From Alicyclobacillaceae bacterium I2511 (GTDB taxonomy: Bacteria > Bacillota > Bacilli > Alicyclobacillales > Alicyclobacillaceae), in assembly GCA_003584005.1 (NCBI GenBank), contig QXHL01000003.1, forward strand, positions 1 through 64,000: a stretch of 64,000 bases of DNA, in the 5' to 3' direction. Below the pieces are notes generated by a model, which ran no database searches, was not told the origin of the DNA, and saw nothing but the letters and a program-made list of their open reading frames with translations. This document shows, one piece after another, positions 14,663 to 41,069 of the stretch; positions within the stretch are counted from its first letter, which is position 1; each line of letters begins with the position of its first letter. The position numbers were made by a program, and so were the translations under genes.

Positions 14663-15034
14663 ATGAGCGAACATGCAGAAAACCATTCCTCAGACTTCTC
14701 TAAAGTTCCGGTACCTCCAGGCTGTACCTTGATGCGGAAAGAGACCTTCGAATACACTACCCCGCATGCCGTGTATCGCGTTGATCTCTACGAAAACCAA
14801 GAAGAAACTTTTTATGCCATTGCTGTACCCGAGGACTCGGAAAAACTGGTTATTTATGGAACGCCGAATTTCAAGTCAAAAGAAAAAGCACTTCTCTCTC
14901 TTGTGGATAAAATTCGTAGAGAAGGTGTAGAAAAGCTCTTTTCCGAAAAAAATGACGTTCAGTCTGAGGAAAATGAGCTACAGGTTGAAGATGATAACAT
15001 CTCTATTCAGTCCAGCACGGATGACCAAGAATAA
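14663..15034 (+). CDS. Conserved-type hypothetical acidic protein
   Basis: A 123-residue soluble protein that I do not recognise. The middle third (residues ~25-85) is a compact alpha/beta-looking domain; the last ~35 residues are strongly acidic, with many Glu, Asp, Ser and Gln, and probably disordered. There is no signal peptide or membrane segment. AAAGGAG lies 10 nt before the ATG at 14663, which supports expression. It stands alone between divergent and convergent neighbours. Confidence 0.65.
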   Translation: MSEHAENHSSDFSKVPVPPGCTLMRKETFEYTTPHAVYRVDLYENQEETFYAIAVPEDSEKLVIYGTPNFKSKEKALLSLVDKIRREGVEKLFSEKNDVQSEENELQVEDDNISIQSSTDDQE

Positions 15035-15186
15035 CAAATCTCAGCAGTCGTATTTTTGGACAATCACCCTACAATTGCATCAAGGGCTGTAAAATTTTTT
15101 GAAGTAAACTCGTTCAACTAAAGAGGTATTAGCAATTTAACTTGGTGATTTTCAAGGGACAGATGATATAATCATTCGCTTGGGAA

Positions 15187-15681
15187 TCACCAATATTTAC
15201 CAATCGCTATTCCCAGTATCGCACCTATAACTGCTCCGGCCAAAACTTCCAGTGGTTCATGCCCAAGAATTTCCTTTAATCTTTCCCCCTCTTGGGAAAC
15301 CCCAGGTGAATCTTGGAAATCCACATCTGACTGATAAATTTCCATTGCAATTCGATTCAGCAAAACCGCGTGCTCGCCCGCATGTCGCCGAATTCCACCC
15401 GCGTCATACATCACAATGGCTGCAAACACAACAGCCGTCGCAAAAACTGGTGATTGAGGTCCAACCACGTAAAGCAGAGAGGCCACCAGAGCCATAACGC
15501 CCGCAGCGTGAGAACTAGGCATTCCACCCGCGTCTAAACATTTATGTAAATCCCACTCCTGATAACGCAAATAGTGCGCTGGAATCTTCAGAGCTTGTGT
15601 AATTAGAATAGTTAAGAAAGAGGCCATCAAAGGTGCATTATTCCACAGTCCATAAAAGAAATGCAATAAATCTGTTTTCAT
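15187..15681 (-). CDS. YuiD-like divergent PAP2-family membrane protein (DUF212)
   Basis: A 164-residue membrane protein of the YuiD family, distantly related to PAP2 acid phosphatases. It has about four hydrophobic helices, with the family motifs GGMPSSHAAGVMAL and MYDAGGIRRHAGEHA in the loops and a conserved LGHEPLEV near the C-terminus. The ATG at 15681 follows GGAGGGGATT. The substrate is unknown, though a lipid pyrophosphate is plausible. It is a single gene in a cluster of small conserved Bacilli genes. Confidence 0.82.
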   Translation of the reverse strand: MKTDLLHFFYGLWNNAPLMASFLTILITQALKIPAHYLRYQEWDLHKCLDAGGMPSSHAAGVMALVASLLYVVGPQSPVFATAVVFAAIVMYDAGGIRRHAGEHAVLLNRIAMEIYQSDVDFQDSPGVSQEGERLKEILGHEPLEVLAGAVIGAILGIAIGKYW

Positions 15682-15873
15682 AATCCCCTCCGCGCGTGAA
15701 ACCATTGTTACATCCTATTTTCTAATTCATCTACCCTACGCCTGCAATACTCTCCACCGCTTCTACGCGTTAATGCTCTACATAACTGATGCTCTTCATA
15801 AATGTAGATACCCGCACACGTGGACAGTCCACCCCATACAATAACCCGGAACGAAAGGAGCGATCCGTCGAGA

Positions 15874-16191
15874 ATGGTAACCATAGAACCGCTTCACTTT
15901 AAGGGCCATGTTATCGTCGGCATTGAAGTCCGGCTACCGAAAACGACTCTGCTCATACTGCAAACAAAATCAGGATATATCATGTGCGGTGCGCTTGATG
16001 TGGCACTGCTTCGCGACAAATTAGCACACCGCGGAATACTTGCCGCGCGGGCGGTAGGTGTAAAAACCATGGATGAATTGTGGAATGGAACCATCGAATC
16101 CTGCACCCAAGCAGCAGAAAAAATTAATATTTCCCCCGGAATATCGGTTCAAGATGCCCTTTCCAAAATGCTGGAACATGAACGTGCCTAA
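15874..16191 (+). CDS. YunC-like DUF1805 protein
   Basis: A 105-residue cytoplasmic protein. GYIMCGALDVALLRDKL and the RAVGVKTMDELW segment match Bacillus YunC (DUF1805) closely. The family is a small conserved fold of unknown function. The ATG at 15874 is the only credible start although AAAGGAG is 13 nt away, a longer spacing than usual. A strong terminator follows 27 nt after the stop. Confidence 0.85.
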   Translation: MVTIEPLHFKGHVIVGIEVRLPKTTLLILQTKSGYIMCGALDVALLRDKLAHRGILAARAVGVKTMDELWNGTIESCTQAAEKINISPGISVQDALSKMLEHERA

Positions 16192-16218
16192 AACATCAAA
16201 TTCAATAACCATGCCCCC

Positions 16219-16250
16219 ACGTGCCCCGACACGGTTTTGTCGGGGCACGT
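16219..16250 (+). terminator. Strong rho-independent terminator after the YunC-like gene
   Basis: ACGTGCCCCGACA pairs perfectly with TGTCGGGGCACGT (13 bp, 6-nt loop) and is followed by ATTTTTAT. It is a textbook intrinsic terminator. Confidence 0.95.
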
Positions 16251-16264
16251 ATTTTTATAGAGAT

Positions 16265-16417
16265 TGTCCGGAAAGGGGTCAGAACTTCCCGACGCATTGC
16301 CGCATTGCCGCGTCGTCGCCCCAAATGCTCCTTCACGTACCGAAAATGTACGCTCAGTGCGCATTTTAGGCTGGCCTCCTCGCACTACTTGGGTCACATC
16401 AGACCCCTTTCCGGACA
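16265..16417. mobile_element. 153-bp MITE-like element with 16-bp perfect terminal inverted repeats
   Basis: The ends are TGTCCGGAAAGGGGTC (16265-16280) and its exact reverse complement (16402-16417). The interior is non-coding, with short repeats (GCATTGCC, CCGCATTGCCGC). TTATAG occurs six bases or fewer outside each end (16255-16260 and 16423-16428) and may be a target duplication, though it is not flush with the repeats. A related sequence, TGTCCGGA with an AAGGG-like continuation, forms a short hairpin at 40829-40865. No transposase lies in the window, so mobilisation in trans is inferred. Confidence 0.6.
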
Positions 16418-16428
16418 CGCACTTATAG

Positions 16429-16868
16429 CGTTCTAGCCCACTATCTGCAACAAACACTTCTCTAAGCACAGTTTAATTGTTAATTAATGGTTTACTGATC
16501 TGTCCCTCATTATGTGCTGCAATGAGTCGTCCAAACCACCTTTTTGGATCCATTCGTGAGACTTCCCATTTCTGCAAAAGGGAGTGAAACTCCATACCTT
16601 GCATAATAATTGCCGTCAGATTGCACGAATAATGAGATTAGAACAACAGTACCCCGCATTCTATTGTGATTCCATCTAGGCCTTGTGTCAACGCCTAGAC
16701 GTAGAATCTTTTCACCCCCCAGTTCACATTTATCACAAATTCGTGTACCATAACATCGATTCTATGCTTATGCATTCACCTTTGGTCTATGCTTTAGAAC
16801 ACATCTTTCAGATGAATATCACACTGAGAAAAAAATTGAAACCCAGAATCAAAAAGGAGAGAAATAAT
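16429..16868. other. Intergenic region upstream of the DedA gene
   Basis: This stretch of about 440 nt has no gene with a ribosome site. The DedA frame stays open through much of it from 16683, but the residues encoded there do not look like a DedA N-terminus. A promoter for dedA is expected; none is clear enough to mark. Confidence 0.4.
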
Positions 16869-17474
16869 TTGTCGGCACAGATTAGCCTTTTTGTGTCCCA
16901 CTTCGGTAGTTTGGCTATTTTCATTCTAATGACACTAGAAAGTGCGTGTATTCCGATTCCCAGCGAAATAGTCATGCCATATGCAGGCTACATGTCCTTT
17001 CTCCATCAAATTACCATTTGGGATGCTGTTTTAATTGCAACCATCGCAAACGTCGTGGGTGGCTGGATTGCTTATGCCATTGGTTTTTTTGGAGGTCGCC
17101 CCTTCGTGTTGCGTTATGGAAAATATATTTTACTCAATGAAAACCACCTGCAGCGAGCAGAACGATGGTTTGCAAAACGGGGCGAGTTGACCGTCTTAGT
17201 AGCCCGCTTGTTGCCTGGTTTACGCACATTTATTTCACTCCCTGCTGGAATGGCACGAATGCCTCTAGGCCGATTTACGCTCTACTCTGCAATTGGATCC
17301 CTCCCTTGGAACATTGTCCTTACCCTTGCTGGATTTCAACTCGGTCAGCACTGGAGCATGATTGATAAATCGCTCAAACCCTTAACTTATTTTGGAGTAG
17401 TCCTACTTATTGCAACGGTCTTGTGGTTTTGGTTTGGCCGTAGACCAGAAAGTTCACGGCGCAATTCTTCCTAA
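16869..17474 (+). CDS. DedA-family membrane protein
   Basis: A 201-residue DedA/VTT-domain membrane protein. Members act in lipid (undecaprenyl phosphate or phosphatidylethanolamine) translocation and membrane homeostasis. Family motifs are visible: ESACIPIPSEIVMPYAGYM near the start, GGRPFVLRYGKY, and FAKRGELTVLVARLLPGLRTFISLPAGMARM, which contains the conserved arginines. The TTG start at 16869 is chosen because AGGAG lies nine nucleotides upstream and it gives the usual family length; an upstream extension from 16683 is not supported. Its stop codon lies inside a 13-bp tandem repeat. Confidence 0.82.
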   Translation: MSAQISLFVSHFGSLAIFILMTLESACIPIPSEIVMPYAGYMSFLHQITIWDAVLIATIANVVGGWIAYAIGFFGGRPFVLRYGKYILLNENHLQRAERWFAKRGELTVLVARLLPGLRTFISLPAGMARMPLGRFTLYSAIGSLPWNIVLTLAGFQLGQHWSMIDKSLKPLTYFGVVLLIATVLWFWFGRRPESSRRNSS

Positions 17475-17524
17475 ACTGTGAACTCAAACTGTGAACTCAA
17501 ACTGTGAACTCAAACTGTGAACTC
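17473..17524. repeat. Four perfect copies of a 13-bp tandem repeat
   Basis: AAACTGTGAACTC is repeated four times without a mismatch, starting on the last two bases of the dedA stop codon and ending 15 nt before the convergent HD-domain gene ends. Copy number is likely to vary by replication slippage. Confidence 0.95.
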
Positions 17525-40819: not shown

Positions 40820-40828
40820 GTTACCGTG

Positions 40829-40865
40829 TGTCCGGAAAGGGAGCAGGACAGACCCTATCCGGACA
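40829..40865. terminator. Hairpin after the ferredoxin gene, related to the 16265 element ends
   Basis: TGTCCGGA pairs with TCCGGACA, extended by AGGG / CCCT after one mismatch, around an 11-nt loop. It begins nine nucleotides after the ferredoxin stop and probably terminates its transcript, although the T-tract is poor. The arm TGTCCGGAAAGGG is shared with the terminal repeats at 16265. Confidence 0.6.
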
Positions 40866-41069
40866 GTCTCTTGTAGTAAAAACGTTAAATATTCGGACAA
40901 ATTACTCACTTCCCAGTTTGATACCAGGGTCCCATCAAGTTCAGTGGACCCTTGCTGTCAGGCGATAAAGATATATATACATTTACAAAAGTGTTGGATA
41001 GCCCCACAGATAAAGAAAAAGTGCCAGAGATAAGAATTAACCATCAGGCGGATCTGCGCAATCCCAAAA
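40866..41069. other. Intergenic region
   Basis: About 200 nt of AT-rich DNA without gene or clear signal. Nothing further is seen here. Confidence 0.3.

Follow-up and report, generated by a model that had tools for sequence, protein, structure and literature searches.

A MITE-like family with an unusually conserved hairpin fold in Bacilli

The interior of a MITE is expected to drift. Among the repeats of Bacilli, bcr1 of the Bacillus cereus group has a length near 155 bp and a conserved structure. In the accessible parts of its descriptions, bcr1 is a high-copy intergenic repeat called MITE-like (PMC3446304), linked to repetitions of a TTTAT motif, proposed to have a recombination-like mobility and reported on plasmids (PMC6542083). 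The available portions of two further sources describe the MITEs RUP, Correia/NEMIS, ERIC and QMITE as non-coding elements in many copies, with terminal inverted repeats, duplications and stem-loops (PMC2229807, PMC10969869); RUP has a matching insertion sequence, IS630-Spn1 (PMC2229807). TIMEs, Tn3-derived inverted-repeat miniature elements, duplicate 5 or 6 bp of AT-rich target, according to the part available of PMC4133298.

We describe here an element from a window of 64,000 nucleotides, the first part of a contig of Alicyclobacillaceae bacterium I2511. Rfam gave only sub-threshold matches to window positions 15000-17500 and five remote loci, and no description of the family was found in openly licensed papers on its ends, on Alicyclobacillus or Paenibacillus MITEs or on covariation in MITEs. 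The MITE family is real and, judged from these two sources, apparently undescribed; its fold is conserved to an unusual degree.

The window element and its surroundings

The initial annotation had placed here a 153-bp element with perfect 16-bp terminal repeats. The 16-mer pair stands: TGTCCGGAAAGGGGTC occurs at 16265-16280 (plus strand) and 16402-16417 (minus strand) without mismatch, and chance is not the explanation, since no perfect non-overlapping 16-bp inverted repeat appeared when the 1153 bp around it were mononucleotide-shuffled 2000 times. The outer limits do not stand. Comparison of copies shows conservation extending 5 bp past each of those ends and halting at a 5-bp direct repeat, which places the element at 16260-16422, GAGATTGTCC...GGACACGCAC, with TTATA on both sides. 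Likewise, of the direct repeat first read as TTATAG, TTATA is the 5-bp duplication; the G after it belongs to the element at the left, as its first base, and to the flanking DNA at the right. The inverted ends of this copy are imperfect (Table 1). The outer five bases differ between the two ends (GAGGT versus GTGCG), which is unusual for a DDE element; written in full, the ends of the family are GAGGWTGTTCAAAAAG / GTGCGTGTTCAAAAAG. The copy departs from the usual length because of a private 8-bp duplication, and it matches the covariance model at positions 1-155 of 155 with 163 bits, being itself among the 14 copies used to build that model. Two mechanical ORFs (98 and 93 aa) overlap the element and nothing supports either as a gene, in agreement with the non-coding interior proposed earlier.

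Table 1. Coordinates of the element, its parts and associated features in the window
Feature	Position	Strand	Basis or remark
Intrinsic-terminator-like hairpin behind DUF1805 gene	16219-16250	+	13-pair stem plus T-run
Left target duplication TTATA	16255-16259	.	Sequence and family duplication statistics
Entire element of 163 bp (usual length in the family, 155 bp), oriented from GAGGT end to GTGCG end	16260-16422	+	Covariance model
Left terminal inverted repeat, GAGAT + TGTCCGGAAAGGGGTCA	16260-16281	+	18 of 22 bp match right end
GCATTGCC, first of two tandem copies (second, 16302-16309)	16294-16301	+	Duplication private to window copy
Inner stem, left side (GCCCCAAATGC)	16318-16328	+	Pairs with two-sided changes across relatives
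Central hairpin CGTAC...GTACG at element axis	16336-16352	+	Helix 5
Inner stem, right side (GCATTTTAGGC; two mismatches in window copy)	16361-16371	+	Changes on both sides
Right terminal inverted repeat, GTGCG + TGTCCGGAAAGGGGTCT	16401-16422	-	Comparison with left end
Right target duplication TTATA	16423-16427	.	Sequence
Decayed mini copy, internal deletion form, 47 bp	40824-40870	-	Model R2, E 2.7e-5

A third 16-mer site, at 40829 with two mismatches, is unconvincing by itself, since three matches with at most three mismatches arose as well in 3 of 100 dinucleotide-shuffled versions of the window. The suggestion that this arm implied a family was nevertheless sound: it is part of a decayed mini copy, and the genome holds many copies. 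Model R1 does not match the mini copy; model R2, whose source copies do not include it, does. Its flanks, AGTTA and TTGTA, agree at two of five bases, and it directly follows the stop codon of an ORF that looks ferredoxin-like by eye.

The window element has a DUF1805 gene on one side and a VTT-domain gene on the other, and its target site is contained in the T-tail (ATTTTTATAG) of the terminator-like hairpin. Sites of this kind (13-pair stem plus T-run) number two in the region, versus 0.9 in shuffles. The matching interval of the nearest relative compared, G001 of the same genus, lacks the element and has instead a 417-aa ORF, glycosyltransferase-like as judged by eye. Because the window retains a 70-bp relic (16478-16547) that is 73% similar to the inside of this ORF, and the same flanking genes are present in G001, the gene seems to have been deleted in the window genome, next to the insertion.

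Copies, target sites and spread

A genome search for the terminal repeat, proposed as a check, gave 122 matches (58 + 64) to the 16-mer with at most two mismatches in the 3.48 Mb (232 contigs) of the own genome, versus 4 (1 + 3) for the reversed pattern. The 153-bp sequence has 42 blastn matches there, and R1, a model made from 14 own-genome copies only, with a predicted structure, has 46, some of them less than full-length. The case named against the first reading, a sequence with no other copies and no matching insertion sequence, does not apply, since copies abound; together with 5-bp target duplications and no evident coding capacity, they bear out the label MITE-like.

Core lengths, counted between the boundaries first proposed, peak at 145 bp and 38 bp in the genomes read, with rarer forms of 33-280 bp. 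Identical full-length copies occupy different sites, with four such copies in each of two genomes, the own one and G001. In some G001 copies there is a second, unrelated repeat or an additional hairpin module; the module occurs also in a further relative, G003, with different stem letters.

End pairs were selected without using their flanks. Perfect 5-bp duplications flank 36 of 44 pairs of the strict set in the own genome, 40 of 68 in G001 and 1 of 7 in G003, denominators slightly inflated by a few pairs that share an end (e.g. L150); this set omits 34/78, 55/123 and 16/23 of the wider-set pairs, respectively. A perfect duplication is thus missing from 8, 28 and 6 strict-set pairs, and likewise from 5 of 30 pairs in the distant genome G147 and 7 of 26 remote copies. 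Own-genome minis of the strict set have one in 11 of 13 cases. With false pairs included, the wider set still gives 36/78, 43/123 and 4/23, versus agreement of 4.9%, 3.3% and 2.1% between flanks taken from two random wider-set copies of the same genomes. When left and right flanks are compared in the own genome and in G001, identity is about 0.6 at each of the five duplicated positions, drops to about 0.5 at their two neighbours and is about 0.25 elsewhere, except for 0.40 at one position in G001. The neighbours are raised because of a target preference, C-TWWWA-G: the 79 perfect cases of these two genomes have the C in 55, the first T in 72, the last A in 74 and the G in 59. A pattern of this kind is what a transposase that cuts with a 5-bp stagger leaves behind.

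Insertions avoid open frames. Among copies with a perfect duplication and enough flank (32 of 36 in the own genome, 31 of 40 in G001, and 23 in G147), frames of at least 100 aa run over 12/32, 17/31 and 14/23 modelled empty sites, versus 70%, 78% and 71% of random positions.

We note some peculiar copies and neighbours: (i) L172 of G001, a full-length copy with a 144-bp core, has its central loop inverted between the inner-stem arms, as though recombination within the hairpin had turned it round. (ii) Two very short palindromic remnants in the own genome (L083:3254 and L084:3270) have a core of about 25 bp and the same ends. (iii) Copies L029 (own genome) and L150 (G001) lie in apparently the same intergenic region, with both flanks similar; because they are in opposite orientation and have different duplications (TTATA versus TGAAA/TTAAA), they are probably separate insertions, and the region is perhaps a preferred landing place. 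(iv) G001 has another repeat family, about 75 bp long, CAGTAAATACA...GTGGATTTACATCCC...GTGCCGCTAWCAGCGGCAT...GGTCTAT (L104:2060-2260, L246, L219 and others), with 50 distinct sequences in the loci examined, several within or beside the hairpin element; its core palindrome is absent from the window.

Within the family, R1 matches 6 of 41 genomes, a count that includes the own genome and, at no better than E 5.6e-4, G023; a copy in G014 was missed by the model and found by pattern search only. Among 299 sampled genomes of the class it matches nine, own genome included, which is a floor because the class run scored only 10 candidates per genome. Three of the nine belong to the family (G000, which is the own genome, G003 and G029), three to another family of the order (G041-G043) and the others (G080, G147, G216) to three further families. 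These matches mostly cover all 155 positions. The remote copies end mostly in GAGGTTGTTCAAAAAG...CTTTTTGAACACGCAC (or ...CAGGCTC) and have their own 5-bp duplications, and terminal inverted repeats are present in those read. Of the 34 remote matches, seven repeat others on the opposite strand and one, L299, is partial; perfect duplications flank 19 of the remaining 26, which come from six genomes outside the family. G147 is one of these genomes, with partly the same copies as in the count that follows. That genome, a single contig of 4.9 Mb, has 315 end matches (162 + 153) versus 2 + 4 for the control, or about 150 copies if the ends pair, and the copies read are nearly identical. Its 30 pairs in 30 loci, one of them a spurious nested pair, include 23 of exactly 155 bp and 25 with a perfect duplication.

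Plasmids of Paenibacillus cellulosilyticus hold longer elements at 24 and 4 blastn places, and P. urinalis has one with TTATA on both sides. Their shared ends, duplication and central hairpin motif, as read by eye, suggest that these are relatives; the match of R2 to a P. cellulosilyticus copy is weak and partial (E 0.017). Exact pattern matches in Odoribacter, Roseibacillus, Myxococcales and two viral contigs appeared unrelated and coding by eye, and single pattern matches in three (G011, G028, G046) of the 7/101 genomes matched were dropped on reading. With blastn, the window copy hit only chance pieces of plasmids and two remote copies hit nothing at E 1e-5 among 72,556 plasmids; these two also had no match in a phage collection.

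Conservation of the fold

The consensus fold of alignment A5 (24 copies) is one long hairpin with five stems, in which 93.8% of cells are paired versus 80.8% in shuffles. Two-sided changes occur in 23 of its 35 pairs versus 11.8 in shuffles, and 103 cells are compensated versus 26.9, counts that related rows inflate; none of 500 shuffles reaches 103, and sliding the partner by 1-3 columns leaves at most 28. Pairing is highest in helix 5, the central hairpin, at 98.3% of cells. Since the A5 rows were found with R1, which was built on a predicted structure, the alignment leans to the R1 fold; most of its copies also align full-length by plain sequence. In the family-only alignment A4 (17 copies), two-sided changes are seen in 7 pairs and in 15 cells, values exceeding those of all 500 shuffles. 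Its signal is weaker than that of A5, and 90 of the 500 shuffles reach its number of further pair types.

Some unpaired letters of the internal loops are conserved, AGAACTC on the left and TCTKACC on the right, the window copy departing in the latter; both motifs, like the central CGTAC hairpin, lie outside the terminal repeats. G-U cells show no preference over A-C cells (14 versus 18) outside one G-U column, with which the numbers become 30 versus 18. Small as these numbers are, the lack of preference suggests a constraint on double-stranded or folded DNA, or on two matched sets of protein sites, and not on a one-stranded RNA. As RNA, both strands are predicted to be stable (z -5.0 and -4.6).

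Mode of movement and relation to described elements

The insertion sequence with the same ends for which a search had been suggested was not found in the examined parts of the own genome, its relatives and G147, nor was any member of the transposase families PF01797, PF01526, PF01609 and PF00665 found with the element's ends. A single DDE_Tnp_1 element in the own genome has ends (CCTGAAATATT) unlike those of the hairpin element, and by these ends we take it to be IS1380-like. G001 and G003 have four DDE_Tnp_1 matches, with ends resolved for one; rve matches (one in the own genome, two in G001) were left out of the end comparison. Among the loci examined, no autonomous candidate came from pairs of ends that have equal flanks and are separated by at most 8 kb, a 2965-bp pair being judged two separate copies, and a search for solo arms gave no parent element. 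The 30 G147 loci read, out of 315 end matches, contained two solo arms; one was read fully and shows no transposase by eye. Locus L068:2950-3892 of the own genome, read by eye, is an IS605-like unit, with a Y1 frame carrying an internal stop and a TnpB-like continuation.

The element, about 155 bp long, is very probably a MITE, a DNA transposon that is non-autonomous and moved in trans; its hairpin is kept by compensatory changes. A DDE-type transposase supplied in trans would recognise the inverted ends of about 21 bp (GAGGT/GTGCG plus TGTYCRRAAAGNGGTC) and join the element to cuts staggered by 5 bp at AT-rich CTWWWAG sites; such joining would make the 5-bp duplication that is seen. Duplications, ends, identical copies at different sites and the avoidance of open frames are direct observations. 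Compensatory changes have preserved the pairing in several lineages, so the interior probably contributes to the movement or spread of the element, e.g. as paired transposase-binding sites or as an extruded DNA hairpin. Short forms would be products of deletion in place, the 38-bp core perhaps resulting from deletion between two GGGTC repeats, and might conceivably move themselves; mobility of 48-bp mini forms is not claimed here, internal deletion between the GGGTC repeats yielding the same sequence.

A less likely variant is that a putative transposase reads the paired structure itself, i.e. the inner stems, the AGAACTC and TCTKACC loop letters and the CGTAC hairpin at the centre, while its insertion would still have a DDE-like stagger of 5 bp. 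Such recognition would account for a fold, and not tips alone, being conserved across several families of Bacilli, and for stem changes that are matched without a G-U preference. The fold could also belong to a repeated regulatory or structural RNA of the host, kept for its transcript and not for mobility, as its covariation, the predicted stability of both strands and the intergenic bias might suggest. We consider this quite improbable: apart from one column, G-U cells do not outnumber A-C cells; transposition is shown by the duplications and by identical copies at different sites; G001 lacks a copy in the single interval that was compared closely; the site shared by L029 and L150 was probably entered twice; and neither window positions 15000-17500 nor the five remote loci have a match in Rfam.

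High-copy palindromic intergenic repeats also call to mind REP/REPIN sequences and their dispersal by a RAYT or another Y1 (IS200-like) transposase, and one of four Y1 matches in the own genome, which spans the whole domain but has an internal stop, adjoins an element copy. To our knowledge Y1 transposition makes no target duplications, so the clear 5-bp duplications argue against such dispersal; moreover the adjoining gene appears by eye to be part of the IS605-like unit, and the copy beside it has its own duplication, TTTAA. Dispersal of this kind is accordingly the most improbable of the readings. A TIME moved by a Tn3-family transposase is scarcely to be expected either. Tn3-type ends are 38 bp long and of the form GGGG...TAAG, against about 21 bp here; the sole end motif beside the single intact Tn3-type transposase of the own genome is of the GGGGTACCGCC type, with neither a second end nor a duplication located near that gene, and G001 (82% complete), G003 and G014 have no Tn3 transposase match. 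What speaks for a TIME is that intact transposase, together with AT-rich 5-bp duplications such as TIMEs make, according to the available part of PMC4133298.

For the MITE reading, an alignment of natural variants is ready for learning which features a hidden transposase needs, and the precise ends and target sites can be used for finding it. Both an interior of about 155 bp and its folding have been retained, with compensatory changes, in several families of Bacilli.

By description, not letter by letter, and as far as the available text of its sources goes, bcr1 is the closest printed kind: high-copy, intergenic, MITE-like and from Bacilli. Close identity is unlikely because two remote copies are unmatched in 72,556 plasmids although bcr1 is reported on plasmids; distant kinship is conceivable. 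With TIMEs, from what the accessible part of their description says, the element has AT-rich 5-bp duplications in common, but its ends are different from their 38-bp Tn3-type ends, and shorter. RUP has IS630-Spn1, according to the portion of its source available, whereas for the present element no matching insertion sequence was found in the searches made. With MITEs in general it shares terminal inverted repeats, duplications, non-coding nature, copy number and a stem-loop; it differs in an interior conserved in length and fold over several bacterial families, and this covarying fold is what makes it distinctive among MITEs.
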